Assembly (NCBI GenBank): GCA_003024785.1
Contig: PUQB01000329.1
Coordinates: 62,001-126,000 of the forward strand
DNA: 64,000 nt
Source: Selaginella tamariscina
Lineage: Eukaryota; Streptophyta; Lycopodiopsida; Selaginellales; Selaginellaceae
Reading direction: 5' to 3'
Part shown: one piece after another, positions 1,495 through 64,000 of the stretch
Position numbering within the stretch: the stretch's first letter is position 1
How the letters are laid out: every line of letters begins with the position of its first letter
Position numbers and translations under genes: made by a program
Notes under the pieces: model-generated
Database searches by the model: none
What the model saw: the letters and a program-made list of their open reading frames with translations, nothing else
What the model was told of the DNA's origin: nothing

Positions 1495-2556
1495 GGATTA
1501 GCCACACTATAAATATCTTTAGATATATTAATAATTTAAGCATATACCTTAGGTATATATCTACTTATTATAATACTTAAATATATTATAATAGTATAGA
1601 TATAAAACATTAAATATAGAATTATATAAGAAAAAAAACGTTATTATATATACTTATAATACTCATTATATGTATAATAAAGCTTCTATATAAACTTATT
1701 TAAAATAATAAAAGTTTTACCATTTGTATATACAGTCTCAACACACACACACACACACAGAGTCAATTTGGTTACTGGTAATATGGTAATCATACACCTA
1801 AGGGATGCTTGAAGGATAATAAGTTGAGAAATTACCCATCTTTTCTTCTTATTATAGCATCCTAAAGGGACGATCGTTTCTGCAAATGTCATGGTTGCCA
1901 GCTTTTGCATAATATTAATAATAAATAATACTAATATTAATATTTTCCTAATACTTAATTCGAGATAAAAAATATATTAAAGTTTAGTTATCACTCTTAT
2001 TATTAATTTATTCTATAGTTTGTACTTAATGTTACTTGGTGATATGAGATTCTACCGGTTTAACAATAATAATTAATATTGACTAATTATTTTTATTTTT
2101 ATAAATAATATATTTATATGAGCCATTTTAATTAAATTTAATAATAAGAATATGTCAGGTTTATGCACTTCCTCTTTTTAGTATACTTGAAGCGGCACTT
2201 GAGAAGAAGTTTAGAATTTACACAACTCTTCCGGTTCGCTCTGCTGTTCGATCGACTTATGTTGGTTAGTTTAAACGTGGTTATTCTTTGGTTTAACTAT
2301 TTTTTTGCAGGTTTCACACATTTCCATTTTTGGAGAGAGCTTCATTATAGAGTTCATAACTTACGTATGTGCACGGGCGTGTGGGTGTGCGTGTGTAAAG
2401 TAACTATACTGAATCCTAGTCAAATATGGTAAGTTTATTTATTTCTCCCCTTTATATTGTAAATGGTTTAACGGGTCATGTCCGAGAACTTAAACCCGGT
2501 GGAACTGAACTCATTAATCCTACTAGTAAAACACCTATGTGCACTGTTCATCCGCG
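1495..2556. other. AT-rich intergenic DNA
   Basis: Contains a short (AC)n tract near 1741-1760. About 2440-2556 still aligns with the 3' flank of the kinase copy at 10380-10480, so the duplicated kinase segment includes some downstream DNA. No gene is seen. Confidence 0.6.
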
Positions 2557-3420
2557 TCAAACCGCCGAAACAAACCTAGTATCGCGTTTAACCCCGGTGG
2601 TATTCCTTACAACCCACTCGTGATTCAACACTTGCTCAGGAGTTAACCTGGTCTTTGGATCCTTGTCCAACATACCTCTGATCAGATTCTTAACTTCTTC
2701 AGAGCCATTCTTCCAGCCATCTGGATGAAATCTAACACACTTGGAGGATTCAATGCTGTATAAAATACTCCTCACCGTGTTCCCGTAGAACGGGAAATAG
2801 CCACTGAGAATGCAATAGAGCACAACTCCAGCGCTCCAGACATCAACTTCTTTACCATACTTTCGCCTGAGCATCTCCGGAGCAAGGTATGGGAGCGTAC
2901 CAACCATCTCCTGCAGGTATTCATTTGCGCCTACAAACTCAGCTAGACCGAAATCTGCGAGCTTGACAGAAGAGGGATTATCATCACCTAACAAGATGTT
3001 CTTCAATGTGATGTCTCTGTGCACAATTCCTCTAGCGTGGCAGAATTGAACAGCCTCCATTAGAGACTTACACAAATCTGCACCTTCTGCTTCAGAGTAC
3101 ACCTTCCTTTTGCTGAATAGGCTACCTCCGCTGCAGAGTTCCATCACCATGTGTGTTTCCAAGACGTCTTTGTAAATTGCAATCAGATTTACTATGTGAG
3201 GATGACATTTCAAACGCTTGAGTATTATAGCTTCTTTGGAATCACGCTGAGTTTTCACTGTCTTGCATGCGAATTGTTCCCCTGTGGATCTCTCGGTGCA
3301 TAGCCTGGTTATCCCTGACGATCCTCGGCCTAGCTCAGGGCCCAAAGTGAACTTCTGATTCAGTTCTGAGCTAGTGCGAAAGCAAGGGAGTAGCCCACAG
3401 AAGTATATGCATATGCACAT
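2557..3420 (-). CDS. Minimal Ser/Thr protein kinase (PEPC-kinase/CDPK-like catalytic domain)
   Basis: A 287-residue single-exon frame that is almost entirely a protein kinase domain, starting at about residue 25. Visible motifs: glycine loop LGRGSSG, ATP-binding lysine in FACKTV, catalytic loop HRDITLKN, DFG in LADFGLA, APE in YLAPEM, and DVWSAGVVLY. There are no EF hands and no C-terminal regulatory tail. The size and order fit the plant phosphoenolpyruvate carboxylase kinase group within the CDPK/SnRK superfamily; the exact subfamily is inferred. The catalytic-loop lysine usual in Ser/Thr kinases (HRDxK) is threonine here. The C-terminus differs by one base from the copy at 10.4 kb, which stays open about 39 residues longer. 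A PPCK-like 3' intron or a frameshift could explain this. The first ATG at 3420 is used. The upstream DNA is a copied extensin promoter. Confidence 0.75.
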   Translation of the reverse strand: MCICIYFCGLLPCFRTSSELNQKFTLGPELGRGSSGITRLCTERSTGEQFACKTVKTQRDSKEAIILKRLKCHPHIVNLIAIYKDVLETHMVMELCSGGSLFSKRKVYSEAEGADLCKSLMEAVQFCHARGIVHRDITLKNILLGDDNPSSVKLADFGLAEFVGANEYLQEMVGTLPYLAPEMLRRKYGKEVDVWSAGVVLYCILSGYFPFYGNTVRSILYSIESSKCVRFHPDGWKNGSEEVKNLIRGMLDKDPKTRLTPEQVLNHEWVVRNTTGVKRDTRFVSAV

Positions 3421-3426
3421 TATATT

Positions 3427-3504
3427 GTTACAGCAATACTCTACTTGTATTATTGTTGCAGCATTACTCTACTTGTATTATTGTTACAGCAATACTCTAC
3501 TTGA
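3427..3504. repeat. 28-bp triplication in the kinase 5' leader
   Basis: GTTACAGCAATACTCTACTTG-type units begin at 3427, 3455 and 3483. The other kinase copy (near 9505-9530) has the unit once. The triplication sits exactly at the join between extensin-derived sequence and kinase sequence. Confidence 0.8.
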
Positions 3505-4079: not shown

Positions 4080-4960
4080 GGCATTAAACAGGGAGTTTAT
4101 TTACACTAAACATACTACCACGCACGCACGCACGCACGCACGCACTTCAACTAGACACAGATATACATATATAAGTTCACACATACAAACTCTCTCTCTA
4201 TAGGCTTATGAAACGAGCAACACAAACACATGCGCACACGCACGCTCTTTAACTAGACACATATATACATAAGTTAACACACACACAAACAGAAACTCTC
4301 TCGCACTTCAACTACACACAGATATACAAAGTTCACACATAAATACACAAACTCTCTCTCTGTCTCTCACGCACACACACACTCACTTCAACTACACACA
4401 CACAAACAGAAACTCCCTCACACGCTACACACAGATATACATGAATATATATAAGTTCACACACACACATGTATGTGTGTGTAGCATCTTCTTGAAACCA
4501 TCTCCAGCCCTGCATACTTGATACCCCAATCTTCAGGAACTCGAACTTATATATACTCATGTATATCTGTGTGTAGTTGAAGTGCGTGCCTGTGTGTGTG
4601 AGAGAGGGAGAGAGTTTCTGTTTGTGTGTGTGTGAACTTACACACACACACACACGCACACATATATATATATATATTCATGTATATCTGTGTAGTTGAA
4701 GTGTGCGTGTGTGTGTGCGAGAGAGAGAGAGAGAGAGAGTTTGTGTGTGTGTGTGTGTACTTTGTATATCTGTGTGTAGTTGAAGTGCGTGTGTGTGTGT
4801 GTGCGTGTGAACTTATATATATTCACGTATATCTGTGTGTAGTTGGTGTATGTGTGTGTGTGTGAGAGAGAGAGAGTTTCTTTTGCGTGTATTCATATAT
4901 ATCTGTGTGTAGTTGAAGAGCGTGCGTGAGAGAGAGAGAGAGAGAGAGCACCATTCTTCA
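4080..4960. repeat. Palindromic microsatellite block
   Basis: The left half (4080-4480) has ACGC/AC/CT repeats and several copies of CTTCAACTACACACAGATATAC followed by AAGTTCACAC. The right half (4550-4960) carries the reverse complement (GTATATCTGTGTGTAGTTGAAG with GT/GA repeats). The block is thus an inverted repeat centred near 4510. The same cassette occurs once more near 15765-15825. Open frames through it are repeat artefacts. Confidence 0.85.
4480..4545 (-). pseudogene. Possible PP2C phosphatase exon fragment
   Basis: At the centre of the palindromic block, about 66 non-repetitive bases translate to FLKIGVSSMQGWRWFQEDA. PPM-type protein phosphatase 2C proteins have GxSSMQGWRxxMEDAH near their N-terminus, so this looks like a captured fragment of one PP2C exon. 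It is too short to encode anything, and the resemblance could be partly chance. Confidence 0.45.
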
Positions 4961-9490: not shown

Positions 9491-9536
9491 AAGATTCCGG
9501 AGAGGTACAAGTAGAGTATTGCTGTAACGATATTAT

Positions 9537-10499
9537 GTGCATATGCATATACTTCGTGGGCTACTCCCTTGCTTTCGCGCTAGCTCGGAACTGAATCAGA
9601 AGTTCACTTTGGGCCCTGAGCTAGGCCGAGGATCGTCAGGGATAACCAGGCTATGCACCGAGAGATCCACAGGGGAACAATTCGCATGCAAGACAGTGAA
9701 AACTCAGCGTGATCCAAAGAAGCTATAATACTCAAGCGTTTGAAATGTCATCCTCACATAGTAAATCTGACTGCAACTTACAAAGAAGTCTTGGAAACAC
9801 ACATGGTGATGGAACTCTGCAGCGGAGTAGCCTATTCAGCAAGAGGAAGGTGTACTCTGAAGCAGAAGGTGCAGATTTGTGCAAGTCTCTAATGGAGGCT
9901 GTTCGATTCTGCCACGTAGAGGAATTGTGCACAGAGACATCACATTGAAGAACATCTTGTTAGGTGATGATAAGCCTTCTTCTTCTGTCAAGCTCGCGGA
10001 TTTTCGGTCTAGCTGAGTTTGTAGGCGCAAATGAATACCTGCAGGAGATGGCTGGTACGCTCCCATACCTTGCTCCGGAGGTGCTCAGGCGAAAGTATGG
10101 TAAAGAAGTTGATGTCTGGAGCGCTGGAGTTTGCTGTATGCATTCTCAGTGGCTATTTCCCGTTCTACGGGAACACGGTGAGGAGCATTCTATACGGCAT
10201 TGAATCTTCCAAGTGTTTAAATTCATCCAGATGGCTGGAAGAATGGCTCTGAAGAAGTTAAGAATCTGATTAGAGGTATGTTGGACAAGGATCCAAAGAC
10301 CAGGTTAACTCCTGAGCAAGTGTTGAATCACGAGTGGGTTGTAAGGAATACCACCGCGGTTAAACGCGATACTAGGTTTGTTTCGGCAGGTTTGACGCGG
10401 ATGAACAGTGCACATAGGTGTTTTACTAGTAGGATTGATGAGTTCAGTTCCACCGGGTTTAAGTTCTCAGACTTGTTAAGGCCTTCGTTATGCTTTTGA
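9537..10499 (+). pseudogene. Decayed second copy of the protein kinase
   Basis: The whole kinase coding sequence of 2557-3420 is present in opposite orientation but cut by several small indels. Compared with the intact copy it loses a T near 9715 (GATTCC to GATCC), a G near 9827, and a C near 9918. It gains a T near 10004 in front of the DFG codons, and has further changes near 10130 and 10216. The catalytic loop still reads RDITLKN, so the lysine-to-threonine change predates the duplication. The 3' end stays open to 10499, about 39 codons beyond the intact copy's stop. No full-length kinase can be read without correction. Confidence 0.85.
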
Positions 10500-40698: not shown

Positions 40699-41752
40699 TG
40701 TTCTTGCAGTTTGAGACACTACAAGTGGTGAACATCTTGAATGGTAAAGAAACCATTGGAAGAGGCATCATCAAGGAAGCCAATAGAATGGCAAAGCTTC
40801 ACAACAAGTAAGTTTTCTATAGTTTTGAGGTTCTTTATATCACTCTTTTGCATGCAGGCCTCTGGGGGATCATGATGTTGCACTTTCTGTAATAGCTGTC
40901 TCGCCAGGATATGAGCGTATGAAGGTTGATTCAGGGGATCCTGATTGTTCCAACTTGGGAAAGTGTTTAACTTATCATGGAGTGTTCATCCGATGGCCAT
41001 GGTGTAAGATTGAGTCAGTTGAGCCGTTTCAGAAGGTAAGTTTGTTGTTTAATTGGTATTTTGGTTAACAATTTTACATGCAGCTTCCATTGGACTTTGT
41101 TGATCTTGTAAGAAGAGAACAAAAGCAGAGATTGAGACAATGTGCAACATGATCATCCCAAACTTGACAAGGAAAAAGCTAAGAACCTATCTCAATACAA
41201 TGACAAAGACTGAACCATGGACATACATAGGTTGGATAGATTTGGAACCACTAGTGCTCTACACCTTTTTTGTTGAAGAGAGCATCGGTCTCGGACATAT
41301 GCGTATTGAGTATGAAGACTGGAAGAAGGCTAAATGGATTGAACTCAATGTGTGTAACTTTTGATAACATTAATAAAATAAGTATTTTACTAAAATCAAC
41401 AACGTCTTATAAGTAGTCCTATTATGTATTTTATAAATGTAACTAAAAATGTTTACTTAAAAAAATGATATATGTGTTTTAATTGTAAAATTAATTGAGC
41501 GGTTAATTTCTATATAAAACACATGTGTTTAATACGTATATTTTTAGCTGAATTAATACAAAAACATAATTTGAAGTTACATATAAAGAAATCTAAAATA
41601 TTATTGATGTTGTTGTGTTTTTATATTGTAATAGAAATATAAATTTATACTTTATAAACATATCAATAAAACATAATAAAAAGTAACTACTACAAGTAAC
41701 TTTCAAAAACAATTGTTAAAAAAGCCATTACAAAATCATATGTTATTGTGAC
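40699..41752 (+). repeat. Left arm of a 1.05-kb inverted repeat of transposon gene 2
   Basis: A plus-strand copy of three exons, two introns and the 3' flank of the gene on the minus strand at 43155-42105. Exon pieces begin near 40699, 40858 and 41082, with the stop of the last near 41364. Differences are few (e.g. 40949 CCTGATTG versus CCCGATTG in the other arm), so the duplication is recent. Confidence 0.9.
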
Positions 41753-42104
41753 TAGAACAAATAATAATTTATATGTGGTTTTATAATATGTTTTTACCTT
41801 ACACATACATGTTATTAAAAATGACAAGTTCTGGTCATTACAAAATCAGAACAAGTGGTGAACATCTTGAATGGTAAAGAAACCATTATTTTTTCTTTGT
41901 TATGTTTTATGATTTTTTTTGCTAGGAGAAGGAACAGGAGCAAGAGCTTACACAAGACAATGAAATGGAACATGATGATGAGCCAAAGTACATTCATGAC
42001 TTGGATGACGTTCACGACGACAAAAACAAATAATGGTTTATATGTGGTTTTATAATATGTTTTCCTACCTTACACATACATGTTATTAAAAATGACAAGT
42101 TCAG
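41753..42104. repeat. Spacer of the inverted repeat, with a direct repeat and an exon scrap
   Basis: Two copies of an 80-bp piece (about 41754-41836 and 42020-42104, GTGGTTTTATAATATGTTTT) flank a plus-strand scrap. The scrap joins ACAAGTGGTGAACATCTTG to GAACAGGAGCAAGAGCTTAC and GACTTGGATGACG, in an order different from the gene at 43315-43090. This indicates the arms formed by a break and template switch. Confidence 0.8.
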
Positions 42105-43155
42105 GTCACAATAACATATGATTTTGTAATGGCTTTTTTAATGATTGTTTTTGAAAGTTACTTGTAGTAGTTTTCTTATTATGTTTTATTGATATGTTTA
42201 TAAAGTATAAATTTATATTTCTATTACAATATAAAAACACAACAACATCAATAATATTTTAGATTTCTTTATATGTAACTTCAAATTATGTTTTTGTATT
42301 AATTCAGCTAAAAATATACGTATTAAACACATGTGTTTTATATAGAAATTAACCGCTCAATTAATTTTACAATAAAACACATATATCATTTTTTTAAGTA
42401 AACATTTTTAGTACATTTAGAAAATACATAATAGGACTACTTATAAGACGTTGTTGATTTTAGTAAAATACTTATATTTTATTAATGTTATCAAAAGTTA
42501 CACACATTGAGTTCAATTCATTTAGCCTTCTTCCAGTCTTCATACTCAATACGCATATGTCCGAGACGATGCTCTCTTCAACAAAAAAGGTATAGAGCAC
42601 TAGTGGTTCCAAATCTATCCAACCTATGTATGTCACGGTTCAGTCTTTGTCATTGTATTGAGATAGGTTCTTAGCTTTTTCCTTGTCAAGTTTGGGATGA
42701 TCATGTTGCACATTGTCTCAATCTCTGCTTTTGTTCTCTTTCTCACAAGATCAACAAAGTCCAATGGAAGCTGCATGTAAAATTGTTAACCAAAATACCA
42801 ATTAAACAACAAACTTACCTTCTGAAACGGCTCAACTGCCTCAATCTTACACCGTGGCCATCGGATGAACACTCCACGATAAGTTAAACACTTTCCCAAG
42901 TTGGAACAATCGGGATCCCCTGAATCAACCTTCATACGCTCATATCCTGGCGAGACAGCTATTACAGAAAGTGCAACATCATGATCCCCCAGAGGCCTGC
43001 ATGCAAAAGAGTGATATAAAGAACCTCAAAACTATAGAAAACTTACTTGTTGTGAAGCTTTGCCATTCTATTGGCTTCCTTGATGATGCCTCTTCCAATG
43101 GTTTCTTTACCATTCAAGATGTTCACCACTTGTAGTGTCTCAAACTGCAAGAACA
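42105..43155 (-). repeat. Right arm of the inverted repeat
   Basis: The reverse complement matches 40699-41752 almost throughout. The outer ends are TGTTCTTGCAGTTTGAGACA and the inner ends GTTATTGTGAC. A transcript through both arms would fold into about 1 kb of double-stranded RNA. Confidence 0.9.
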
Positions 43156-44737
43156 GGTATGTTGTAATGAAATAAATATTATTACAACTGAAAACAATAT
43201 CTTCTTCTCCCAAGTCGTCGTGAACGTCATCCAAGTCATGAATGTACTTTGGCTCATCATCATGTTCCATTTCATTGTCTTGTGTAAGCTCTTGCTCCTG
43301 CTCCTCTCCTAGCAAAAAAAATCATAAAACATAACAAAGAAAAATACTACTTTAAATCACCTCCAAGGCCGTGACTGTTACTTCACTCTTTTTCTTGGCT
43401 CTTTCTCCGATCGTTTCTCTTCATTATCACCTTCATCATCCTGCTAAAACAAGTGTGCACACATATAACTTTAAAGAGAACTATGCAATGCTACTTACAT
43501 CCGGCACAATACGACGTCTCGTCTTTAGCCTCTTTGATGCTGGCACTTCTTCATCGTCACAACAGTCCGCTTTAAGAAAGTTGCTATCCATCTCACAATC
43601 AGTAAGACATTCAGGCCAAGTAACAACTTCCTACAAATATATGTACACATTAGATATATCTAGAAAAACATGTAAAAGGTAAAACTTTACTTCCTCAGTG
43701 ATCTGTGATGCTTCTGAGCCCGTGAGAGGTACAAACGCTCCAGAACTGAGGCCGCTAACTTTACTTACCTTCACCTTCAACATTATGATGTTGGATTCCA
43801 CGTACCAGCTTTGAACAACTCCACGTCCCACAAGCACCTCACGCTTTATAAAGAATGGTTCCCGCTTCCTCCTATTCCTGAAGAGTTGCTGGCAGAATTC
43901 TACGTGTTCCAAGTCAAGTACTTTCTTGAAACCTACAAGAACCACCTCCGAAACATTGTAAGTATATGAGCGAGTATGAATTGTCCTTGATTGTGTTAAT
44001 GTTTGTTGGAGCCTTTGACGTTTCCCATGCAGGAATATTGCAATGCGTTGAGAGACCCACTCCACAGGAGTTGTAAATGGTTCATGACCTTCAAAGACAA
44101 TGGGCTGCATCTTCCCCGTGCTAACAAGCTCTTTTGCCAAAGCTTCCCGTGCAGCCAAATTCTCCTTTTCATTTTTTCCAAAACCCACACGATCAAAAAG
44201 TGGAAACCGCTCTTCGCATGCCAGCCGGATCTCCCTTAAGTTCCCAGACATTTGCTCATACTGTTCCTCCCAACCAACCGCATCAAGTCCGCTGTGTGAG
44301 TTGAAGTTGTAGTTCTTGAATAAAACTTCTTTTGAAGGCACCTCCCCACGGACCATGAGACCATATTTATGCTTCTTTTCCACCCTTTTGGACCTCTTTG
44401 AATGCCGTTTCACTCTTGTCCCTGGAGACGCTTGGGTAGGTGATTGAGACACATGACTATTTTTGTTGACGCTGGAAGGTGTTTGCTTGGGGTTCACCAC
44501 CTTCAAACTCTTCGCTATGCTAAAAAGCTCCGCAGCTGACCCATAACAAAGGCCCAACTTAACCCAGTGCTCAATGTCGAGGTGAACAAAGCTAGAGCCA
44601 CGGATCTTTTGGCTTACCAAAACAGAATGAATGCTATCCAAGTCCTCCGGTGCACCATGGAAATGCTGCTTGATATGGGTGAACAAAGCCTTGCTATCCC
44701 AAGCTTTGCTCTCCTCCAACAAACTTATGGATGACAT
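42487..44737 (-). CDS. CACTA second protein, Transposase_24-like (Ptta/En/Spm family)
   Basis: Starts at ATG 44737 (the frame opens at a GTG at 44770 after a stop), or upstream if spliced. Exon 1 to 43691 encodes WDSKALFTHIKQHF, a basic patch RVKRHSKRSKRVEKKHKYG, and an element-specific region. The exon 43632-43499 encodes EVVTWPECLTDCEMDSNF and an acidic/basic tail. Further exons give EEQEQELTQDNEMEHDDEPK, then IGRGIIKEANRMAKLHNK, then LGDHDVALSVIAVSPG and GVFIRWPRCKIEAVEP. The last pattern (G-G-I..., LG...V.V, I-x-WP) matches the C-terminal domain of plant Ptta/En/Spm Transposase_24 proteins. The final exon (42777-42487) ends IELNVCNF. The right-arm copy of this exon has a stop where the left arm reads TEPWTYIGW. 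The role in transposition (TNPA-like DNA binding) is inferred. Confidence 0.6.
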
Positions 44738-45150
44738 GAACGGCTGCTTAACACAACAGTTGGAGAACACGGTGGAGTGGGAGATAGAAGCTTAGTAGGA
44801 GAGCTCGGAGATGAAGATGGAGATGAAGATTGAGAGAATTTATGATACTTTGGAGAGCGCTCTGCCGACTGAACACCACTCACCATCATTAAATGTGTCT
44901 TTATAAGAGACTCTAATTATACTTGGGAAGTCTAAAAAAGACATATGTTTATTTAATAGTTTTATTTACTTACATTTGAATTTTTAAAATAGACATATGT
45001 TTATTATTTAAAAGCTTCGTTTAATTACATTTACTTTTAATACAGTATAAAATAACAACCGTACCTATATGGTGAATTCAGTTGAACTAGGAAATTACAG
45101 ATATATATTATTACAGATAATAATTTCATTACAAATAATTATAATGATAA

Positions 45151-48100
45151 TTATAAGTGTATTTTATTTGTCGGAATAAAAACTTTTTTTCCGCTTCGTC
45201 TTGCCTCCATGCAAGGAATGACCTTGACAATGCTTTCCCATTCCTGTGGTTCTTTCTCCTTGTAATTTTCAATAAGAACCCCTTGTGTGTGCTTGCAACC
45301 ACGTAATATATACTTGTTTGTCTTCAACATTAACAGTGTTAATAAGAGTACCATTTTTCACCGATGGGAGCGTACATCTCCATTCTCCATCTCTAGGCCA
45401 GACTGGAACAATGCCAGGTTTACCAAGCTTCAACAGTGCCTTTGGCAGTTCAGCTATTCTTGTCTCCATTGCAATCTTATATCCTGGTCTCTTACCATCA
45501 CGACAAGGCAGCACACATATTTCTCTAAGTATCTTGGACACTGGTAGAATGCTGCTATAATCAAATCCTTCAACTTCTTTGTGCAGAATTCTCATCCCGG
45601 TAGCAGCGTCAACCTCAACCTCTCCATCCACTACACTATACCATGTACTCACCTGCAAAGAACATAACCGTCCCTGTACAAATGTTTGCTGTGAATACAA
45701 ACTCCAGCTTCGCAATGTACTCAAGCAAATTGTCTGGAGCTTCAACAACAATGTAGTCCCCCTCACTAAAGACCGTGTCAGCTACAAGTACTGATGAGTA
45801 CCTTTCTATGGTCTTAGATGACAACTCATATCTAAACGCTGCTAAAGCTTCTTCTTCCTCCTTTGATACATGTCTCTTGGTAGACCTTCCAATGGCTATA
45901 CCTTTGCTAACGAACTCATCCCAGCATGTGTGTTTGCTAAACAGACGTATGTTCTTTGCTAAAGTTTGTGTTGGAACGCATATGTAACCATCTACAAAGA
46001 CATGTATGTTACATTTATAACTTCTCAATGTAAACAAATTTACCTGGAGCTCCTCCTTTGCAATATAATGCAACAAGCTTTTCCCATCGCGTAGTAGGAA
46101 GTAATCCATCACAGTCAATAGATTTCAAGTTCATTAACTTTGTAAAAAAGGTTCTGCAAAATGTTTTAATACATAATCTTTAAAAAAACAATGAAAGCAT
46201 ACCTTTGTAATGCTCTGGTGAAGGATATTTCCATTTCTTTTTGGTTTGTGCAGATACGATTCACTGTAGCAAAGAAGCGTTCAAATCGGTAGCACCATAA
46301 CAAGTCATGATGACCAAATCGCTCAACATCTAACAACATGTGAGCTGCTCCAACCATATGCTGGACAATAGATTTGTTGTCTCCAAAAGCAATATTTGAT
46401 CTAACACGCCATGAAAAAAGAAGAGTCCTTGCAGTTGATATTGTTTCTTCATTCCAGCCATGAGTTCTACTGTAATCATAGAATAATTTTGTTATGGCTG
46501 ATAGCACCTGCATACATATTATTTTCAGTTTAAGTACATGCAACACATATTTACATACCTGTAAAATGTCCCATAGAGCAGGATTTACAAGTCCTTCCAA
46601 AACATAGAGGCTATAGACAGCACTGAAAGTCTGGTGTTCATCTCCTTTCCAGTTACCTGGTCTGCATGTAGGATTTTCAGGAGCACGTTTCTTACGGAGG
46701 TAAGGTGTTCTATGCTCCAAAGCAGTCTCCAACCTGGTTGTTAAAATTCTTTTAGAAGTCTGTGAAGAGATCTCTTCCCAGCAACTTTCATGTGCCTTCT
46801 TTAGAACTCCCAGAGCTAAGTGATGCATTACGTCTATAGTAACATCACCAACAATCTTGAAAGCCTGTGTAGTGACCAAACCATATAATTCTGTTGATCC
46901 ACGTACACCTGTCTCTCTTTGTGTCTCTTCTCCTTTGTTCCTTTTTTGTAGACAACTTTCATAATCAGCTTGAGTGCGAAGAGGATCTGGTTCTCTAGTC
47001 TTTAACCACACATCCTCAAACTTACCTCCATTTTCACAACGTACATGACAATATCGGCAAGGTAGCAATCCGCCTATTGTATAAGATTAAAAAAGAAAAA
47101 GTTTGGAAAGTGAAAATGTACCTTGTGACAGTTTTGTAATATCACATTGAGCCGGATGGTCTCCAACAACAGCAAGTGTCAATACGCGTAAGTTGAAAGA
47201 TCTATCAAGTTGCAAGCCGGGGACATCAATTGCATACTGAACTGGAGTTCCTTCGACAAACAAATCATTCAACTCCGCAACTAGAAGTTGTAGATAAAGA
47301 TCGTACTTGTCAGGACCATCTGGAAGATCTTCAGTTGTAAATAACATAACTGGTAGAACCATGTGTTTAACCTCTGGAATAGCGTTCTTACCACCATTTA
47401 CCACCTGAATGTTCAAAGACATGGTGCTCCTTGTTCTCGTACTTGTGGCCTGAAACTTGTCCGAATGAATGATCACGGCAAGGTTTCTGGGATCACCCTC
47501 TGCGTATGCCCCAGAGTACATAAAGATGTTACCACAGATAGAGCAAGTCATGCTTCCATTCTCTGAACGTGTAGCAACAACGTTGTGTTCAGTTGGCCAG
47601 CAGTGGAACATTGTCTTGCAGGTGGGACATTGTTGTGGAAGTTTCCACTGTGCACCTGGAGTGAAAAACGATTGATACTCACGCCACTTGCTACCATGCC
47701 AAAACTCTTGCATTTTTGAAGGTTGCTCATGCGTATGTTTTCCAAGCCAATCCTTTCTCTCTCGCCATGGCTGTAGGAAACTCCAAGCTACTGTTCTTGT
47801 TGACACTAGCATTTGAAGCCTAGCTGCAAGAGGGATGTACATGAACTGCTTTGCATCCTTGCGGATGTTTAAACATGAAGCACATGACACCCGGTTTGCT
47901 TTAGTGACTTGAGCTTCATCGTCTTTAATTTTTGGAAATATATATGGTTTGTCATCCTTATGGTAACACATTGCATATCTGTCAACCTCTGGAGCTCCCA
48001 AGTCTCGGCAGAAGCGTTTCATAGTCTTCACACTAGTTGGAACCTTATGACCATTCAACTTCCCTGACCAGTTGTTTAACGAAGCTATCTTTGATGCAAG

Positions 48101-48703
48101 TCCATCTTCTTTAAAAGCAGTTTGTAGACTTCATTAGCTAATGCTTCAGGTGCTCTGTGTTGTTCAAACAAACTTGCAAGGTCAAGAATAGAGAATAAAA
48201 CAGCATCATTCACGTCAGCAATCCTTTCTGTGGATGCAACTGTATCAAAATCTGGATCATCAAATGGATTTTGTACTGCAATTTGTTGTGGCAATGGCTC
48301 CATACACACCTCAACATGCATGCCGTCATCTATTTCATTCTCCCTTGTATTTGGCAATGTTTCTTGTGTTTCTTCGTTGTAAATGGAACTGTGGTTTTTT
48401 GTTGTAAGGCACCCCCTGCTTGTGATTGAAGTATTTTTCTTTTAACATCCGCGCAACCAAATGCTGCCCATATCCTGTTCTAGAGTATTGCACCCCACCT
48501 AGTTCAGGATTTCTAGCTTTACAAAGTTGACATCTACAAATCCTGTAAACATTTGTAAACCTTTTTCTTGAAGATGCTACATGCAACAATTGCTTGTCGC
48601 ACTTTCTATGATAATCCCTTGTTGGTCTAGGAACCAATTTATAGCCACATTCCTCACTTCGACACAACTTGCATTGACAAATTACCTTGTTCGCAGGTGC
48701 CAT
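45151..48703 (-). CDS. CACTA TNP2-like transposase
   Basis: ATG at 48703. N-terminal part with CQCKLCRSEECGYKLVPRP and CRCQLCKARNP, Cys-rich and zinc-finger-like. Then the Transposase_21 (Tnp2) region at 48058-46166: DLYLQLLVAELNDLFVEG, SFNLRVLTLAVVGDHPAQCD, intron (47121-47074), LLPCRYCHVRCENGGKF, LYGLVTTQAFKIVGDVTIDV, MHHLALGVLKKA. A DUF4218-like part has FGHHDLLWCYRFERFFATVN. The C-terminal region (46118-45151) has VFVDGYICVPTQTLAKNIRL and YILRGCKHTQGVLIENYKEK. The order matches plant En/Spm TNP2 transposases, which cut and join element ends. Apparent breaks near 48360, 48100 and 45300 are single-base shifts or small introns. Activity cannot be judged. Confidence 0.8.
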
Positions 48704-49003
48704 ACCTGAAAACCTAACATAACTAAAAGATATATGTAAATAATAAACTTAGAACTAAAACATAATACTCAAATAAGTAACAAATACAAGCCCTATTTAA
48801 AAAACATATCAGAAAAATAACATGTTATTTTATCTTGTTTACACTTCATACTCCCAAATCACATATTATTTGTTATAAATAACAATAAACAATAACAGTT
48901 AAACAAAAATAATTTCTCTCACCTCTTGTTACAATCACAAATTATAAATGTTATTTTCAAATATAGCTTCTTGCTGCTATTTTTAGAATGGGGTCCCCGT
49001 GTG
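48704..49003. other. Transposon 5' flank
   Basis: AT-rich sequence that probably includes the 5' end of the CACTA element. No CACTA terminal motif was located. Ends near GGGGTCCCCGTGTGAGGGG (48990-49008). Confidence 0.4.
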
Positions 49004-49308
49004 AGGGGTTTAGGGCGTGGGGTTAGGGCAACCCTAGGGGTGTTTCTACACATATTCGATATGCTAAACTCACGGAACCACTTAAAAACCTAATCGGGAC
49101 ATGGAAAACTAAGGTAAGAGTTTTTTAGATGAAAGTGCTAACTTCGCCTAGAGTTTCTTACAAATACCTAATGACACCGGCTGGACCATCACTAAATATC
49201 TAAGTGTACTAAGCAAGCCTATTTCTACACCTAAGGCTTATTAACATAGTTCAATAGGTAACAACAATCAACATCCAAAGTAAAAAGGAGTCATAGTAAA
49301 AACTATGA
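49004..49308. repeat. ~300-bp direct repeat, left copy (candidate LTR)
   Basis: Shares GGTTTAGGGCGTGGG, CGCCTAGAGTTTCTT, AATACCTAATGACACC and AAAAACTATGA with 54269-54556 in the same order, at roughly 85-90 per cent identity by eye. The ends are not TG...CA, so it may be only part of an LTR. Confidence 0.75.
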
Positions 49309-54268: not shown

Positions 54269-54556
54269 GGGTTTAGGGCGTGGGCAACCCTAGGGTGTTT
54301 CTACACATATTTAACATGCCGAACTCACCCAAAAACCTAATCGAGACATGGAAAACTAGGGTAAAAGTTTTCTAGTTGGAAGTGTTAGCTTCGCCTAGAG
54401 TTTCTTGCAAATACCTAATGACACCCGACTAGACCATCACTAGATATCCAAGTGTACTAAGTGGGCCTGTTTCTTCTACACTTAGGGCTTATCAACATAA
54501 TTCAGTATGTAACAATAGTCAACGTCCAAAGTAAAAAGTCATAATAAAAACTATGA
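54269..54556. repeat. ~300-bp direct repeat, right copy (candidate LTR)
   Basis: See 49004-49308. The flanks of the two copies are unrelated, so the repeat ends sharply at both sides. Confidence 0.75.
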
Positions 54557-55126: not shown

Positions 55127-55440
55127 TAAGATTCCATGGTATATATGCAATATATACACCACATAGACTCCGCCACAAAGGCGCCATTTGGCACTAGGAT
55201 CTAGGCACACTAAAATTTTAGGAAATAGCTAATCTGGGCACCAAGATTTACCAAGCGCCAGGTGCGCTAACATTGGCATGGACACTTAGTATAAATGCCT
55301 TATATGAGTCAAACCTAATTAATTCATATTTGGTATTCGCACATCTCTCAACATCATATACATATTATAAATATTTAAAATGTATAAATATATAAAGAGT
55401 TCTATTTTTTTATTTTCTCACTATGTAACTCTTGAACCAT
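55127..55440 (+). mobile_element. Candidate 3' LTR following the gypsy remnant
   Basis: Begins TGATATAAGATTCC directly after the polypurine-like tract and has a TATA-like TAGTATAAATGCC at 55289-55301. The right end is not resolved, and no partner LTR with this sequence is in the window. Confidence 0.5.
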
Positions 55441-55475
55441 AGTCTCCCAATAGTCGACCACATGCTTATATAGTT

Positions 55476-57726
55476 CTAAGTAACTAGTTGCCTTATTAAA
55501 ATTCTTTGACATCGATTTTGAACCCATGCCACATATTTTTTGATGCCATCAATAATAACCTCTTGTTCCTTGAGCTGGGCACTCAATGGAATAGGGTCTG
55601 GTTGTCCTTCTAGGAGAAGTGGCTTCCCATCCTCTCCACTTTTGAACAGCATTAAGCCCTCTTTCGGTAACCACTCCTGCTCTAATGGCCGTAACTTGTA
55701 CTGCATAATAGGTATACCATCTTTTATGGAGAAAAAGAATTGTATCGGCACAAGGTGACCAACTAAAGAATCACTCCCCTCTTTTATATACTCCTTGAGA
55801 AACTTTTTAAAGTTTGCACCTCAGTCACAAGCAAAGCACAACTTTTTTTGGAGATGCAATCTTCAAAAAGATCCATCATATGCGGTAAGGTAAGTGCACT
55901 TGTCTTTTTGTACAGCTGAAGACCTTGCTGAAGAAAGCATCAATATCTTCATGAGTGTGACCAACCATAAGGAAACTGAGCGTGATTGTCTTAAACACAC
56001 CTTTGGCAACAAGCATTAACAAGTATGCTAGCACATCTCTAGAAAATAAAAGTAAGTATGAGCTTGAGAAACCCTTAAGTAAAATGATTTACCTATTTTT
56101 GTAAAAGCAAATGACGAGGAAGCTTATTTGATGTTGAGGACACATGTACACTATTTGAGCTAGATCCCTCTACTGAACCAGAACTCTCAACAGGCCCATC
56201 TATTTTTTGTGTAGGCTGCTGACAATGCCTCTCATATTCCCAAGTAGCCTCAAGTGTAGACGTGTTCATGAGAGCATTATGTAAAGGTTGAAGGTGTTGT
56301 TTCTTCACTTTGAGATCACTAATAGGACTTGTTTGTGAGTGGGCTTCAAGGTTTCTAAAACACATGGCCAACGACCCAATAGTGAAATTGGAGTCGCTAG
56401 ACCAATGTGGAAGTGAAAAGTGTCCATATGACTCACAACCGTGTCCATGTGTTAGCACACATGTCAATAAAATAGAAGTTTCATGACATTTCCAAGGCAC
56501 TTTGGTGTTGTAACGAGCTTTGGAATGTTGGTCTTTAAATGATCCATCTTGTCATGGATCAAGCACAAGTACTCTGATGGGGTGACACAGAAAGCATGTG
56601 GTGTGCATAGTACTGAGACCAACAAGTTTGTTGTCCAATCATGTGGGACTCCAAGTGATCTCCACCAAGGTTTTTGCACAAGCCTCTGCAGCCTTCAATG
56701 ATGTCAAGTGTCACACTTGGAAAAGTTAAAGTGTTTTGCAATCTCCACATCCTTAAAATGAGTATTCCATATGTTGTTGAAGGTACCATTGCAGATTGCT
56801 TGAAGCCCCATCAAACTGAGGCACTTGTTCACATATTCACACTGCTTCAATTGAGTGTAAATTGAAGGCAAAACCTTGAGATTTTCCCTGACCCCTGCAT
56901 TTGTGGTTCAGCATTTGTGAGGCATGATCCTGTCTGCATTTGCTTCTACAAAGCCTTGAGTATCTCTATGGCTACCATAATGTGAGAGTGGGTTTTGACC
57001 AAGCGAGTGTTCCTATGTACTGAGGTTCGCGCTCCATCTAGCCATTCATCCCTCCGACGGTAAAACGTGGTCTTGGGATCCCATATATAGTGTACCAAGC
57101 TTTGAAGCAGATGGCCACCTTATTAAAACCATGGATGTACTCTAATAATATGTGTTCGAGGCCATTCCATCAATACACCTAGTTAGTAAGCATATACAAA
57201 CTCATGCCTTTGCTTTTGGTGAGCATACGAAAGACATGTCTACATTGGGTAATTTCATTCTGATCTACCATTTGACAACACTTCTTCTGCAGCAGTCAAT
57301 CGTGGCAATGCTCATAACACTTTTGGAAGATGTAGAATCCATCTTGACCCTCTTACCGAAACTTGCAAGGGAAGATCTGCAACCCATGAATCGCCTTTTT
57401 CTTACAATAGGACCAATGTAAGGGATCTCTTCAAATATGGGTTATTCTTCCAGATTGTTATTATTGAAATCCAACCCAAAATATGTTGAACCATCTTGCC
57501 GTCTTAATTCAGATGTTCGCCACCTCACAAGGGATTCAGGATGCAATGTGCCATTAGGTGAAACCTCTGTCACAACTACACCCATGAAGTCAGCCCCTAG
57601 TTTCTCTTCTGACACTACTTCCATTGAATTTATAGCTGTGATGATGCCTCTCCCAACCTCGATCTCATGAAGAAAGAGAATCACCTCATTCATCACAGCA
57701 GGCAAGCCATCATCTGGTGAACTCAT
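55476..57726 (-). pseudogene. Remnants of a second CACTA-type (Transposase_24-like) gene
   Basis: The frame 57726-57442 has VILFLHEIEVGRGIITAINS and GADFMGVVVTEVSPNGTLHP. These share VGRGII and G-V-V-V-x-V-S-P spacing with the gene at 43315-42830. Minus-strand frames at 56500-56093 and 55751-55476 may be other exons (KPLLLEGQPDPIPLSAQLKE), but these are not matched to a family. The reading frame is broken throughout. Confidence 0.45.
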
Positions 57727-58120
57727 ACTACTATTTGTTTGTGACTCTGCATATCCTGTGTCAGCCTTAACTTATTCCACAATACAGGAGAACCCTCCTT
57801 AAATTCCATTTCCAAACCTCAACATGCTTGCAAATGGTGTTCAACCATACGTACACACAAGATCCTTGGGCAATATTGTGACATGATGCATTATTATTTC
57901 AAACTTTCAAAATTCCAATGCCAACTATCTCGTTGTTCCGAAGAGACATACTTTATCTCCAATATTAAACATATTGTTCTACACATAAATAATTGTGTTA
58001 TTTATGATATCTGTTTATGCAATATTTCTAAGAAATCTGAATTGCGGGTGCTTAATAATATGCATGTGCAATAATACATAATTATGTATAAGGATAGTAT
58101 CTCATGCTTGATTAATACAA
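57727..58120. other. Intergenic DNA before the palindrome array
   Basis: Ordinary AT-rich sequence. No gene or repeat is recognised. Confidence 0.6.
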
Positions 58121-58125
58121 CTGAT

Positions 58126-58970
58126 GGGCGGGATTAATCCAGCCACGACTCCCTCCGACGAGGAACGGTCGACGGGAAAGTGGCGATGGGATTAATCCCG
58201 CCGCCACTCTTTTCAACGAGAAAGGCCGGCGGGATTAATTCCGCCGCCAACTCTACCCCTTCGGAGAGAGGCAGCAGGATTAATCCCGCCGACTCTTCCT
58301 CATCGAAAGGAGTCGGCAGCGGGATTAATTCCATCGCCGGATCTTCCTCGTCGCAGAAAGGCGGTGGGATTAATCCCGTCGCCGACTCCCTCCAATGACG
58401 AAGAGGTGGCGGGATTAATCTCGCTGCAACTCCCTCTAACGAGGAAGAGACGGCGGGATTAATCCCGTTGCAACACCCTTCCACGAGGAAGAGGCGGCGG
58501 GATTAATCCCGCCCACAACTCTCTCTGAAGCTATGATTTCCTTCGGAGAGATCTCGAGGGGGTGGCGGAATTAATCCCGCTAATGCTTTTCTGCGTCCGA
58601 AATTGATCAGCGGGATAAATCCTACTCACAAATATTTAAAACAGGGAAGTGGAGGCGAGATTAATCCCGCCACTCCTTCTCTGCCTCTTAGAATGGTTGG
58701 CAAGATTAATCCCGCCAACAACTCTTTCTAATAAATTCTGGTAACTCTTCATCTGTTGAGAGAGTTATCGGCAGGATTAATCCCGTCGCTCTTTTTCAAA
58801 GGTGGAGAAGTATTGTCCGGAATAATTCTACCATGGTTATTAAAGAGATGGTGGCGGGATTAATCCTGCCACCTCTAAGAGGCGAAAAGAAATGGCCGGA
58901 TTAATCTCACTGCCTCGGCTAATAGAGAATATTAAGTAAGAATGATGTTTAAACGGGATAAATCCTTAAC
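58126..58970. repeat. Palindrome array 1: 18 units, mostly 45-bp period
   Basis: Each unit centres on GGATTAATCC, in the best copies extended to the perfect 18-bp palindrome GGCGGGATTAATCCCGCC. Core starts: 58131, 58189, 58232, 58277, 58322, 58367, 58412, 58456, 58500, 58568, 58613, 58658, 58703, 58774, 58819, 58857, 58898, 58956. Eleven of the seventeen spacings are 43-45 bp. Spacers are of the type CCACTCCCTCCGACGAGGAAGA. Units decay towards the right end. It is GC-rich compared with both flanks. Confidence 0.95.
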
Positions 58971-61080
58971 GGAATATAATGTAATCCTAATGCATTCATA
59001 AACCCCTAAATTATGATTTTAAGAGAGAATGTAAGAAAGTGAATCTTTATAAGTATTTTTAAATTTGTTTATAATATTTACTTGTAAACAGCACTGAAGA
59101 CACCATGCTTTCCTATAAACAATAGCACTCAATTTAATGTTGCTCTTAAGCTGATCACTATCAAGAAAAAAGAAAATCTGAAGAGTGAAAATTACAGAAA
59201 TGAAGAAACCTTTGCCAGAAAAAGAACCAGATCTGAATTTGAGTGAAAAATTAAATGTATTTTCAAATTTACATGTCAAATCGACAATACTTATGTCAAA
59301 AATTCAAATTTTTTGAAAAAAACAAAAAATAAAATTTAAGATGAGTTAACACAAATAACTAACACTACTCTCCAATTCCAATGAGTGTTATAAAATTGCA
59401 TTTAATGTGATTCAAATGATTCAAGCTGTTTAATATTACAAAATTTTAGTAATTATTCTACATTCTTAATATTTCAGTATATATTATTAAGTTTATATTT
59501 ATATATATATATATATATATATACTTATACAATAAATAAATTGATATATTATTATGTATCATTTAAAATATATTCATAGTGTGTTTATTAATATTATTTT
59601 CTTAATTACTCGAGTAATTAAGTTACATTTTCTAATATTAATGGGATATTCTTTATTATTTTTTTAATATTCGAAGAATATTCCAATATTAAACCTGATT
59701 ATCATAATTAATTTAGTTAATTATTTACATTTGTATATATTAATAGGATTTTCTCAATTAATTTTTTATTATTTCAAGAATATTCCAATATTAAACCTTA
59801 TCAATATTAAATTAATTAATTATTAAAACTATATATGGCTATATATTAGATAAAATGATATATTATTATGTATAATTTAAAATATGTTCATAGTGTGTTT
59901 ATTAATATTATTTTCTTAATTATTCAATGTTTGTTTTGCACACATATATAAACACAAATTGAATCATAAATTTATATATACACATGCACACGCATTAGAA
60001 GCATTTACAGAGACACATATGCACACACATGCACAAGCCAATGAGTGGATCACAATATAGATAAAGCATCTAGCTTTGTATTTATGATATAGAGTTTAAA
60101 ACCAAAACCAAAACCAAATATTTATAATTACACACACTCTACACTGGGACTTACATATGTTTAGTGTTTAGAGTAAATAATTAGAAAAATGTGCATGCAT
60201 TTAGTTTATATTAGTATAAAGATTTTATACTAATATATATATTATGTACCATATAAAATTTAATAATAAAATATTTGCATTGGGTTTAAACCCTAAACCA
60301 AATTGGAGAGATATGTTGCTTCTTTATTGAAAACATCATGTTCAACTCATGTATGATCCATATGTACTCAGTCTGTGTGTATGTAACACATTGAATTTAC
60401 ATATATAATATGTATGTATGTCTGTGTGTATACATGTGTGTATATATATATGTGTACTAATATATGCAATGTGTACGATTTTAATTTGTTAACACTCTCT
60501 CTCTTCTCTCATACATACACACTATGCATGATTCATAATATGTAGTCTGTCTCTCTTTTCTCATACATACACACTATGCATGATCCATAATATGTACTGA
60601 TGTTACAATATTATGTACTATGTATATATGTTTGTGTATAATATGTGTATGTATATATGTACTAATATATGCAATGTGTACAAAATTAATTTTTTAACAC
60701 TCTCTCCTCTCATATATACACACCATGCATGATTCATAATATGTACTGACGTGACAATATTATGTACTATGTACGTATGTCTATGTGTATATTATATGTG
60801 TATATATATATTGCTACACGTGAAAATTTAACAGTCTCATAGACACACATATGTTAAACCGGTGTATGTGATACACCCACACACCCACGCACACACAAAT
60901 TTAAAATTATGATAATATAATGAAAGAATATTCATTTAGGATCAATATATATTTTATTCTTTTTAGGGTTTAGGTATATTCTTAAAAGGAATATTCGATT
61001 AGGGTTAATATATATTTTATTCATTTTAGGGTTGAAATATATTTTTAGGGTTTCAAGAATAAAGGCGGCGGTAGTGGATT
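58971..61080. other. AT-rich spacer with several direct repeats
   Basis: ATATATTATTATGTATNATTTA...TTATTTTCTTAATTA occurs at 59541-59612 and 59858-59925. TCAAGAATATTCCAATATTAAACC-like sequence occurs near 59670 and 59775. CATACATACACACTATGCATGA occurs near 60510, 60560 and 60715. AGGGTT motifs lie at 60965-61050. No gene is supported. Confidence 0.7.
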
Positions 61081-61651
61081 AGAACGGTTGTGCCATAGAT
61101 GTATAAATCTCTCTCAAAAAGACGTGGCGATGCAAAGTGGGGCAGTGGTGCAGTAAGGTTTGAAGGTGCATTCAAACAGGTGAAATCTCTCTCTCTCTCA
61201 CACGCACACTCTGGTGTATATTTATTTATCTATATTTACATATACATTTATATATGTGTGTATCTTAATAATAAAATTTATTTATCTATCTCTCGCACAC
61301 ACATGCACACTCCTGCATATATATATGTGTTGTGTGTGTGTGTGTATGTGTGTGTGTTGTTTATCTATATAATTTTTATTTATTTCACTCACACACGCAT
61401 ACACATGATATACATATACACATATATATATACCTAGATACATATATACATACATATATTATGTGTGTGTATATGTATAATTTTATTGATTTATTAGTTT
61501 TATCTCTCGCACACACACGCACACTCCTATAATATATATATATGTGTGTGTGTGTGTTGTGTGTGTGTGTGTTTATTTGTATAATTTTTATACACAATAT
61601 ACATATACACATATATATATACCTATATACATATACATATATATACATATA

Positions 61652-61738
<87 letters not shown>

Positions 61739-61888
61739 ATGTGTGTATCTGTATAATTAAATTTATTTAGCACACACACACGATATACATATATACATAT
61801 ACATATACATATGTGTGTGTGTATGTGTATAATTTTATTGATTTATCTATCTCTGGCACACACACACACACACATGATATACATATCC

Positions 61889-61931
<43 letters not shown>

Positions 61932-62015
61932 GTGTTTGTATTTGTATAATCTTATTGATTTTTCTATCTTTAGCACACACGCACACTCTCGTATATACAT
62001 ATACATATATGTGTG
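61081..62015. repeat. Repeated microsatellite cassettes
   Basis: The cassette TTATCTATCTCTCGCACACAC followed by GCACACTC and a TA/TG tract recurs near 61190, 61280, 61495, 61845 and 61965, joined by (TA)n, (TG)n and (TACA)n runs including (TA)n at 61678-61729. Many long open frames on both strands here are repeat artefacts. Confidence 0.9.
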
Positions 62016-62150
62016 TGCGCGGGATTAACGCCTGGGCGGCAGGATACATATACATATATTGTGTGCACGAGATTAACGCCTGGGCGGCAGGATACATATA
62101 CATATATTGTGTGTGCACGAGATTAACGCCTGGGCGGCAGGAACATATAC
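62016..62150. repeat. Three 50-bp tandem units at the edge of palindrome array 2
   Basis: GATTAACGCCTGGGCGGCAG begins at about 62022, 62072 and 62123, each followed by ATACATATACATATA. GATTAA and GGCGG recall the half-palindrome of the arrays. Confidence 0.85.
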
Positions 62151-62164
62151 ATATATTGTTTGTG

Positions 62165-62960
62165 CATGGGATTAATCCCCTGCTCTTTGGTTAGCCCCGT
62201 TGGTGACGGGATTAATCCCGCCGCCCAGGCCCTTCACGCAGGTCATGAGCGACGGGATTAATCCTGCCACCATGACCTATGTGGAGGGCCTACATGAAGG
62301 GCGGCGGGATTAATCCCTCCACCCATATATATGTGTGTGTGCGCATGATTTACAAAAGGGCGGCGGGATTAATCCCGCCACACTCCGCGCAGCCCATGGG
62401 CGGCGGGATTAATCTTGCCGACCCTTCTATGCATGGTGGCGGGATTAATCCTGTCGTCCCTCCGAGGAGGCGTGAAAATGGTAGAAGGATTAATTCCCTT
62501 CACCGGGCATAGAAGGGGTGGCAAGATTAATCCCGCCAACTGCCATTATCCAAATGAGAGTGTCCTGGGCGGGATTCGTCTTGCTCACCAGGCATGGAAG
62601 GAGTGGCGGGATTAATCCCACCACCCTTCTCTGTCTCTTGAATTTGTGAGCCAAATCAATCCCGATGACTTTTGTCTGAGACGGAGAAGGGTTACCACAC
62701 ACTAGTTCAGGGACTGAGAAGGGTGGCGAGATTAATTCCACCATCCCTTCCATGGTGGGCGAGATTAAATCCCGCCACCCTTCTCTTTCCCTTGAATGGA
62801 TGTGCCAAATAAATCCCGACCAGTTCTCTCTAAGACTGAAAAGATTGTGGGATTAATCCTGCACACCCATTCAGGGGATTGAGAAAGGTGGGGCGGGATT
62901 AATCTCGCCACTCCTTCTATGCCTCCTGAAGGGGTGGGTGAGCGGGATTAATCTCGCCAC
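62165..62960. repeat. Palindrome array 2: about 18 units, looser spacing
   Basis: Cores of GGATTAATCC or close variants start at 62169, 62209, 62255, 62307, 62366, 62406, 62442, 62487, 62524, 62572, 62609, 62653, 62729, 62763, 62809, 62850, 62896 and 62945 (spacing 34-59 bp, one of 76). Several keep the full GGCGGGATTAATCCCGCC. Spacers differ from array 1, often CACCCTTCTCTGTCTCTTGA-like, so the palindrome is the conserved part. Confidence 0.95.
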
Positions 62961-63070
62961 CTTCCATGTGAATATATATGTGTATTAATATATATAAGTT
63001 GCATATCTCATTTTATTTATTTTTATCATCTTATCATAATATTTTGAGTAAAAGCCAATAAACTATGTGA

Positions 63071-63157
63071 AATTGTCCAAAGCTCACATTTGTGATGATT
63101 TTAAAACCAAATGTTATCAGTCTTTTGCACTAGCACAAATGTGAGCTTTGGACAGTT
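63071..63157. repeat. 24-bp-stem hairpin
   Basis: TGTCCAAAGCTCACATTTGT (63074-63093) is the exact reverse complement of ACAAATGTGAGCTTTGGACA (63135-63154). The match extends to 24 pairs with one G-T, around a 39-base loop. It sits just outside array 2. Confidence 0.9.
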
Positions 63158-63289
63158 AATCCCATCCACTTCTCTCTGAGACAAAGAGGGGTGTATGTGA
63201 ATTTATCTGTGTAATAATTTTGTATATTCGGGTTCTACAAGTGTGTGTGCGTTTTATATGATTTGTATTCATAGTGTATTTGGTTGACA

Positions 63290-63965
63290 ATGGCCCGTCA
63301 TCGCGGCTAGCCGGCGGGACGCCCACCGACGCGGACGAGCGATTGGACGAAGCGCCGGATAAGGAAGGTACTTCAGGTACGGACTGATGGCGATCGGTGT
63401 TAGGCGGCGGCATAACCAGGAAAGATCCGATCATCCGGACCAACTACCTAGGGTACGAAGGACAACACGTTGGGGAGGCGCATAAATGTGACAGACAGGA
63501 CTCTGTCACCAGGCGGCAGACCAGTGGAGAGCGCCACCTGTAGCTAAGGTCTAGCAGTAGGTACCCCACTATATAAGCCGAAAGGCGGGTAGTGGGTCGG
63601 GGTCTTTTTGGAGTCAAGTCTGCATCTTATATCTTGCTCCACTGTCGGAGATAGTTTGTACTCAGACAAGCAATATATATCCATTTTCCTTCTATTCACC
63701 CCACAAGCGGGCGTTCCCCGCTTGCCTAACTCCTGGGCCCCGCAACACTCTCTGCCCAGTCATCTCAGTAGAACTCCAATTTACCTGTACCCAAACCCTC
63801 GCGGCGTCCGGGTAGAGGCCATCAATACCTTCCATTACTCCTGAGGTGAGGCCCGGCTTGCCGGCCGAACCCCTGGGGTTGGACGCCCTCAACAGCGTCT
63901 TGGCGACCACTGCAGCTTCCTGAGAAGCACCACATCTAGCATGTGGAGTCCCTGACGACCATTTG
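63290..63965 (+). mobile_element. GC-rich LTR-like sequence (5' LTR of an element leaving the window)
   Basis: Base composition jumps to GC-rich at about 63290. A TATA box TATATAAG lies at 63570, followed by a transcript-leader-like stretch, and the sequence ends near GACGACCATTTG. TGGCGACCACAGAGGGAT (63966-63983) resembles a tRNA primer-binding site, which begins TGG. The LTR boundaries are estimates. Confidence 0.5.
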
Positions 63966-64000
63966 TGGCGACCACAGAGGGATAGATAATACACACAGAT

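Follow-up and report, generated by a model that had tools for sequence, protein, structure and literature searches.

A palindrome of 18 bp is repeated in two arrays near one end of the window, the window being the whole stretch of 64,000 nucleotides analysed (C648:62001–126000 in an assembly of 300.7 Mb with plant gene content). The first array, called R, adjoins a broken gene for a DUF7869 protein, and the second, called L, lies on the side of a second gene of the same mobile element (Table 1). The central region between them is also found in other copies of the element that have both arrays. The first-pass annotation, made from the letters of the window, had counted eighteen palindromes in the R array and missed the L array. 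The R array is found where it had been placed. It holds 17 cores, and a further decayed one is visible in the sequence near 58953, but only eight carry the exact string GGATTAATCC. This string occurs 16 times in the window, eight times in each array, whereas 100 shuffles gave 0.10 on average, so that chance is no explanation. The full 18-mer had been described as frequent, which is overstated: it is found once per array, and in the R array in one of the 17 cores, at 58496. No core was found elsewhere in the window at up to 5 mismatches.

Table 1. Positions of the palindrome arrays and of the features around them, counted from the first nucleotide of the window.
Feature	Positions	Strand	Basis and remarks
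Transposon copy, part in the window	55427..63280	-	From alignment to copies A, B and D; gene-side end missing beyond 55427
Broken DUF7869 gene	55479..57972	-	DUF7869 in two pieces (E 1.1e-15 and 0.003); open frames
Array 1 (R array)	58127..58911	.	17 cores, ≤6/18 mismatches; adjoins DUF7869 gene
Central region between arrays	58912..62164	.	AT-rich, microsatellite-rich, non-coding; from composition and tandem repeats
Array 2 (L array)	62165..62958	.	16 cores, ≤6 mismatches; second-gene side
Nested LTR retrotransposon, 5′ LTR and beginning	63281..64000	.	LTRs C648:125294–125961 and 132644–133313

The successive spacings of the R array are 58, 43, 45, 45, 45, 45, 44, 44, 68, 45, 45, 45, 71, 45, 38 and 41 bp. 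The spacing of 43–45 bp that had been given as the prevailing one holds for 11 of the 16, while the others lie between 38 and 71 bp. A coding repeat was rejected because spacings of 38–71 bp break the frame, and helix phasing because the modal spacings of 44–46 bp do not make a whole number of 10.5-bp turns. The DNA around the array is AT-rich, as had been stated, but the array itself has a GC content of 43–57%. When its units are aligned, the core carries a mean of 1.49 bits per position versus 0.47 and 0.41 in the two flanks, in agreement with the earlier statement that the core is better preserved than the spacers; the profile is ungapped, and varying spacer length inflates this contrast somewhat. 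C>T or G>A accounts for 33 of the 39 mismatches in R-array cores, and A/T sites are hit in 2 of 102 cases. The fraction of transitions is 0.83 in the core versus 0.46–0.50 in the spacers. Methylation decay was rejected as the whole cause of the pattern, since the spacers have changed in all ways despite the C>T/G>A bias of the core.

Both arrays align to their own reverse complements over long stretches of hundreds of bases, as is inevitable for palindromic units repeated in tandem, and spacers are present in both orientations. Such symmetry would also be seen if the palindromes were kept by cruciforms or hairpins, by hairpin RNA or by template switching, with no sequence-specific binder, and some spacers of the R array do fold locally better than shuffled ones. 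However, folding of the L-array spacers is weak, and the two arrays keep the same letters, not symmetry alone. Maintenance by structure or homogenisation is regarded as quite improbable. Two other repeats were seen beside the L array. Between 61190 and 62175 of the window, CA/TA/TG-rich repeated units with inverted symmetry are followed, next to the array, by a 49-bp unit with GATTAACGCC in 3.7 copies, and a short inverted repeat around TTGTCCAAAGCTCACATTTGTG was noticed by eye at 63081–63157.

The genome search for the 18-mer that had been proposed in the first-pass annotation gave 27,128 exact copies of GGCGGGATTAATCCCGCC in the assembly, with 0 for the reversed control, and in the copies fetched the arrays belong to one DNA transposon. 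Among the matches listed (the first 100, all on contig C1) there are at least six array pairs, 3.6–4.5 kb apart start to start, and at least five further groups without a partner at the level of exact cores. These copies align with one another far past the arrays. The 200 kb fetched around them contain 114 cores at up to 2 mismatches, of which 109 fall within mapped elements and the other 5 are beside another partial copy. R arrays hold 15–20 cores at all nine loci having one, and L arrays hold 14–33 at all eight.

The ends of the element were read by comparing four regions, one of which contains two copies in a tandem duplication. From the end positions, the element measures 13.56 kb in copy A2, 13.64 kb in D, 13.8 kb in C2 and 14.8 kb in B. 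Its inverted terminal repeats in copies A, B and D are ATGCACGTTGTAACTAAAGTGGGCATG on one side and ATGCA[AT]GTTGTAACTAAAATGGGCATG on the other, with small variation. The terminal pattern is present at 4,444 ends genome-wide at up to 3 mismatches, with 0 for the control, and with two ends each this would amount to about 2,200 elements. Four of the seven copies in which both junctions were read have an exact 4-bp target duplication (TAAT, ACCA, TTAT and ATAA, three of them AT-only and the fourth being ACCA); the other three, C113, C91 and B, have none. Two genes face outward from the central non-coding region, and one array lies on the side of each gene, in copies A1 and D at the gene-facing edge of the AT-rich DNA. 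The duplicated region (G000, C1:895001–933265) carries the element within an 18.65-kb tandem duplication of about 98% identity.

An element bounded by the two arrays themselves (58.1–63.2 kb of the window) was considered and rejected: the inverted-repeat search gave mostly the cores, no convincing inverted repeats bounding the two arrays were found in the window, and the true ends are seen in the copies. Both the anatomy and the copy number are direct observations, and the array is almost certainly one of the paired internal palindrome arrays of a high-copy DNA transposon of about 13.6 kb with inverted terminal repeats and 4-bp duplications. The earlier suggestion of a subterminal repeat region was right as to a DNA transposon, as these repeats and duplications demonstrate, but not as to the position, since the arrays are internal: copies A1 and D have them about 5.1 and 3.8 kb inside the two ends.

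The palindromes could be sites of a transposition complex, bound by transposase or an accessory protein that helps to assemble the cutting complex, in the manner of TNPA on CACTA subterminal repeats. The arrays are element-specific and conserved, and they resemble the dense palindromic motif described for soybean Tgmt*, in which 24 subterminal repeats within 732 bp form 12 palindromes (PMC2613891). Nevertheless, they lie kilobases from the ends, and what stays constant is their distance to a start codon; this function is considered unlikely. Membership of the CACTA (En/Spm) group was rejected as well. It was hinted at by Transposase_23 and tnp2 matches below cut-off, but CACTA elements such as Tgmt* are reported with subterminal repeats, CACTA termini and 3-bp duplications (PMC2613891), while here the repeats are internal, the termini are ATGCA and the duplications 4 bp. 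The tnp2-like gene is located outside the mapped element, where its frames occupy 43631–48748 of the window on the minus strand (Transposase_21, E 3.2e-4, below cut-off).

By its termini and duplications the element is a DNA transposon. Sola2 is reported to have short inverted repeats and 4-bp AT-rich duplications (PMC3627910), and Sola1 is reported in plants (PMC9033089). Compared by termini and duplication, the present element shares short inverted repeats and 4-bp duplications with Sola, although one of its four exact duplications, ACCA, departs from the AT-rich type described (PMC3627910). Duplications of 4 bp are also made by other superfamilies (PMC10045372), and their length would be compatible with Sola and equally with these. 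Sireviruses have been described as carrying palindromes with a CGG–CCG signature, clustered in groups of eight or more at two places per element (PMC2829016), and CGG...CCG is present in this core too. They are LTR retrotransposons, in contrast to the present element, and Sirevirus membership was rejected on its inverted terminal repeats and on the lack of any reverse transcriptase among the Pfam matches of the open frames scanned.

The copy in the window is older than the other copies compared, is truncated, and is split by an LTR retrotransposon. Its gene flank differs from theirs by 6.8–8.1%. The LTRs of the nested retrotransposon are 91.2% identical and its insertion is marked by a GTATT duplication, the junctions of which were read by eye. 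Beyond the window, the other side of the transposon copy resumes after the retrotransposon at C648:133314–138093. Except for one 42-bp match, the window lacks a counterpart to the last 1 kb or so of copy A1.

The start codon of the DUF7869 gene in the window (57970–57972) lies 154 bp from the nearest core and is preceded by the splice-acceptor-like TTTATGTGTAG. The same distance is observed in other copies, where the start codon of this right gene lies 152–154 bp from the last core in eight of the nine R arrays, with the splice-acceptor-like TTTATGTGCAG before the start in seven of those eight and TTTATGTGTAG in the window copy. With this fixed distance and motif, the R array belongs to the promoter, to the 5′ leader or to an intron in the leader. 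Other copies have intact frames of the gene. Its protein matches DUF7869 with E 1e-26 in one copy, a domain that is not annotated as a transposase and for which the literature searched gave no mention. Genome-wide, the right protein has at least 300 matches (the best 150 of 4,249 candidates scored), and the open frames among them extend to as many as 1,092 codons free of stops.

The left gene is oriented the opposite way; in copy D, about 0.4 kb separate the L array from the beginning of its first open frame. The C-terminus of its product has an NIF-like phosphatase domain (E 4.7e-11). For the middle part of the protein, at least 150 matches were obtained (the best 150 of 5,151 candidates scored), 11 of the 150 with a stop. 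The two proteins show a weak N-terminal similarity, with 11 of 37 residues identical and E 1e-4 in a single comparison. The window protein has a weak match to Transposase_23 (E 0.0024, below cut-off), but neither the frames of copies D and L056 nor the left protein repeated it, and a shared N-terminal domain thus depends on the one short alignment. Within the frame of the left gene, a lone core-like site with 2 mismatches was seen at six of the six loci inspected (L051:499, L053:290, L054:450, L055:411, L056:698 and L059:6848).

The middle part of the left protein resembles ParB, by eye only, and the AT-rich centre has palindromes on both flanks. These features would suit a replication or partition site, with an AT-rich centre between iteron-like palindromes and a ParB-like protein of the element. 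However, the pieces tested matched no ParB or replication family (Pfam, NCBIfam and PHROGs at lax thresholds), no PDB sequence and no plasmid, and the 4-bp duplications suit the insertion of an ordinary transposon. We regard such a site as highly improbable. A bacterial or viral origin was also rejected. The exact core occurs in 49 bacterial stretches and one viral contig, of which L011 is the only one with at least three cores at up to 4 mismatches, and no relatives of either protein were found in the viral contigs searched. At L011:1782–2483, on a bacterial contig (Anaerolineaceae), there are four core-like palindromes with up to 4 mismatches; these were taken as unrelated.

Conservation confined to the core was observed both between the two arrays and between copies. 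In the three copies tested, cores of the L and R arrays are 84–87% identical, and the spacers, which the two arrays hardly share, score −0.04 to −0.07, close to the −0.10 to −0.11 of shuffled ones (sd 0.11). Over 131 L and 120 R sites, the information falls steeply outside the 18 bp; sites and cores were picked for their likeness to the consensus, a choice biased towards conserved cores, and misaligned units could inflate the divergence of spacers. Of the 36 pairs that the nine R arrays form, 32 have a core less diverged than the spacer and 4 do not. The pooled divergence of the 36 pairs is 5.8% for the core, 10.9% for the spacers and 3.7% for the adjoining gene flank; that the core exceeds the flank speaks against constraint. 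Between sublineages (L052 and L056 versus the other non-window copies), the core has diverged by 3.1–8.2% and the spacer by 12.8–17.5%. For instance, one such pair has 9 differences in 267 core positions versus 51 in 377 spacer positions (p 7e-6), while core and spacer have diverged alike in the two close pairs tested (p 0.45 and 0.77); all pairs given p values were picked after the divergences of the 36 had been inspected. The pattern appears to fit constraint while the elements are active and neutral decay afterwards. The first-pass annotation had expected a constrained site and not a passive satellite, and this behaviour of the core is supported by its retention, common to both arrays, while the spacers diverge.

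Arrays at gene starts could also serve to capture a host factor. They would then be enhancers, with their GGCGGGA and TCCCGCC halves bound, for instance, by E2F/DP or their ATTAAT centre by a homeodomain protein of the plant, giving expression in chosen cells. Both candidates come from short motif resemblance, as noted in the first-pass annotation for GGCGGGA (E2F/DP) and GGATTA (K50-type homeodomain), and an animal-type K50 homeodomain is an unlikely candidate in a plant. The core amounts to about 29–31 bits over 18 bp, a sum inflated by the selection of sites, and this is long for the usual dimer of a host factor. All 109 + 5 near-exact cores in the 200 kb are in or beside copies of the element. 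On the other side, arrays of a palindromic CGG–CCG motif in Sirevirus LTRs are described as thought to be cis-regulatory (PMC2829016). Capture of a host factor is again judged unlikely.

In the explanation that we consider best overall, and on which we are evenly balanced between belief and doubt, the internal arrays of the transposon would be clustered protein sites at its two promoters. We infer binding, binder and effect as follows. Each 18-bp palindrome would be a site bound by a dimeric protein, and the clusters of cores would serve the two promoters of the element as operators or enhancers, a proposal given a little less than even weight. The likeliest binder would be encoded by the element, either as the product of the second gene or through the N-terminal stretch seemingly common to both proteins. 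Its role may be to keep the genes of the element expressed or unsilenced, like that of VANC proteins on the motif arrays of VANDAL elements.

VANDAL21 of Arabidopsis is the closest parallel. VANC21 is reported to bind short motifs that have multiplied in tandem, both upstream of the VANDAL21 transposase gene and in introns, with repeat numbers that vary between copies (PMC5735166). Both are large multi-gene DNA transposons in which the repeat number varies from copy to copy (PMC5735166), and here too the motif arrays, of 14–33 cores in L and 15–20 in R, lie in non-coding DNA at the genes of the element. In contrast, the VANC21 motif is described as 9 bp long, non-palindromic and in one orientation within the array, and its binder is proven (PMC5735166), while here the motif is an 18-bp palindrome and the binder a candidate. 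The present element also differs in its 4-bp duplications, and the VANC-type domain DUF1985 is absent from the Pfam matches of the frames scanned, a subset of those of the element.

The composition of the R array is of interest for silencing. Its spacers are without a deamination footprint at nine of nine loci (CpG observed/expected 0.67–0.89, TpG+CpA 0.48–0.66), in contrast to the strong footprint of the right gene (0.28–0.41 and 1.44–1.51, respectively), as would be expected if the array were kept unmethylated. The composition of the R spacers may, alternatively, be an effect of purine tracts. In L-array spacers, deamination is not clearly lacking; their CpG observed/expected of 0.42–0.63 is below the 0.62–0.77 of the left-gene side.

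To our knowledge, few plant transposons carry a sequence-specific regulatory code of their own. The literature searched gave no plant paper, by title, for the core and its sub-strings. Control or anti-silencing by a sequence-specific system that the transposon itself encodes may have been invented here a second time and independently, in which case two divergent proteins with a related N-terminal stretch would recognise a fully specified 18-bp palindrome arrayed at the promoters of both, a reading that we hold to be rather doubtful. If it is true, 27,128 exact sites have been spread by the element in a plant genome of 300 Mb. The candidate site is long and exactly defined, there are two candidate proteins, and many copies have long open frames; anti-silencing outside VANDAL becomes a question that DNA-binding and methylation assays can address. 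The family also offers sublineages in which the site stays and the spacers turn over.

Other repeats are present in the window. An inverted repeat of about 1.06 kb with 97.8% identity, along with a further pair of 132 bp with 98.5%, lies at 40699–43344, and an inverted duplication of 96% identity that includes a protein kinase frame joins 2477–3449 and 9506–10475. Direct repeats of 82% identity at 49006–49308 and 54269–54556, about 5.3 kb apart, are perhaps the LTRs of another element.
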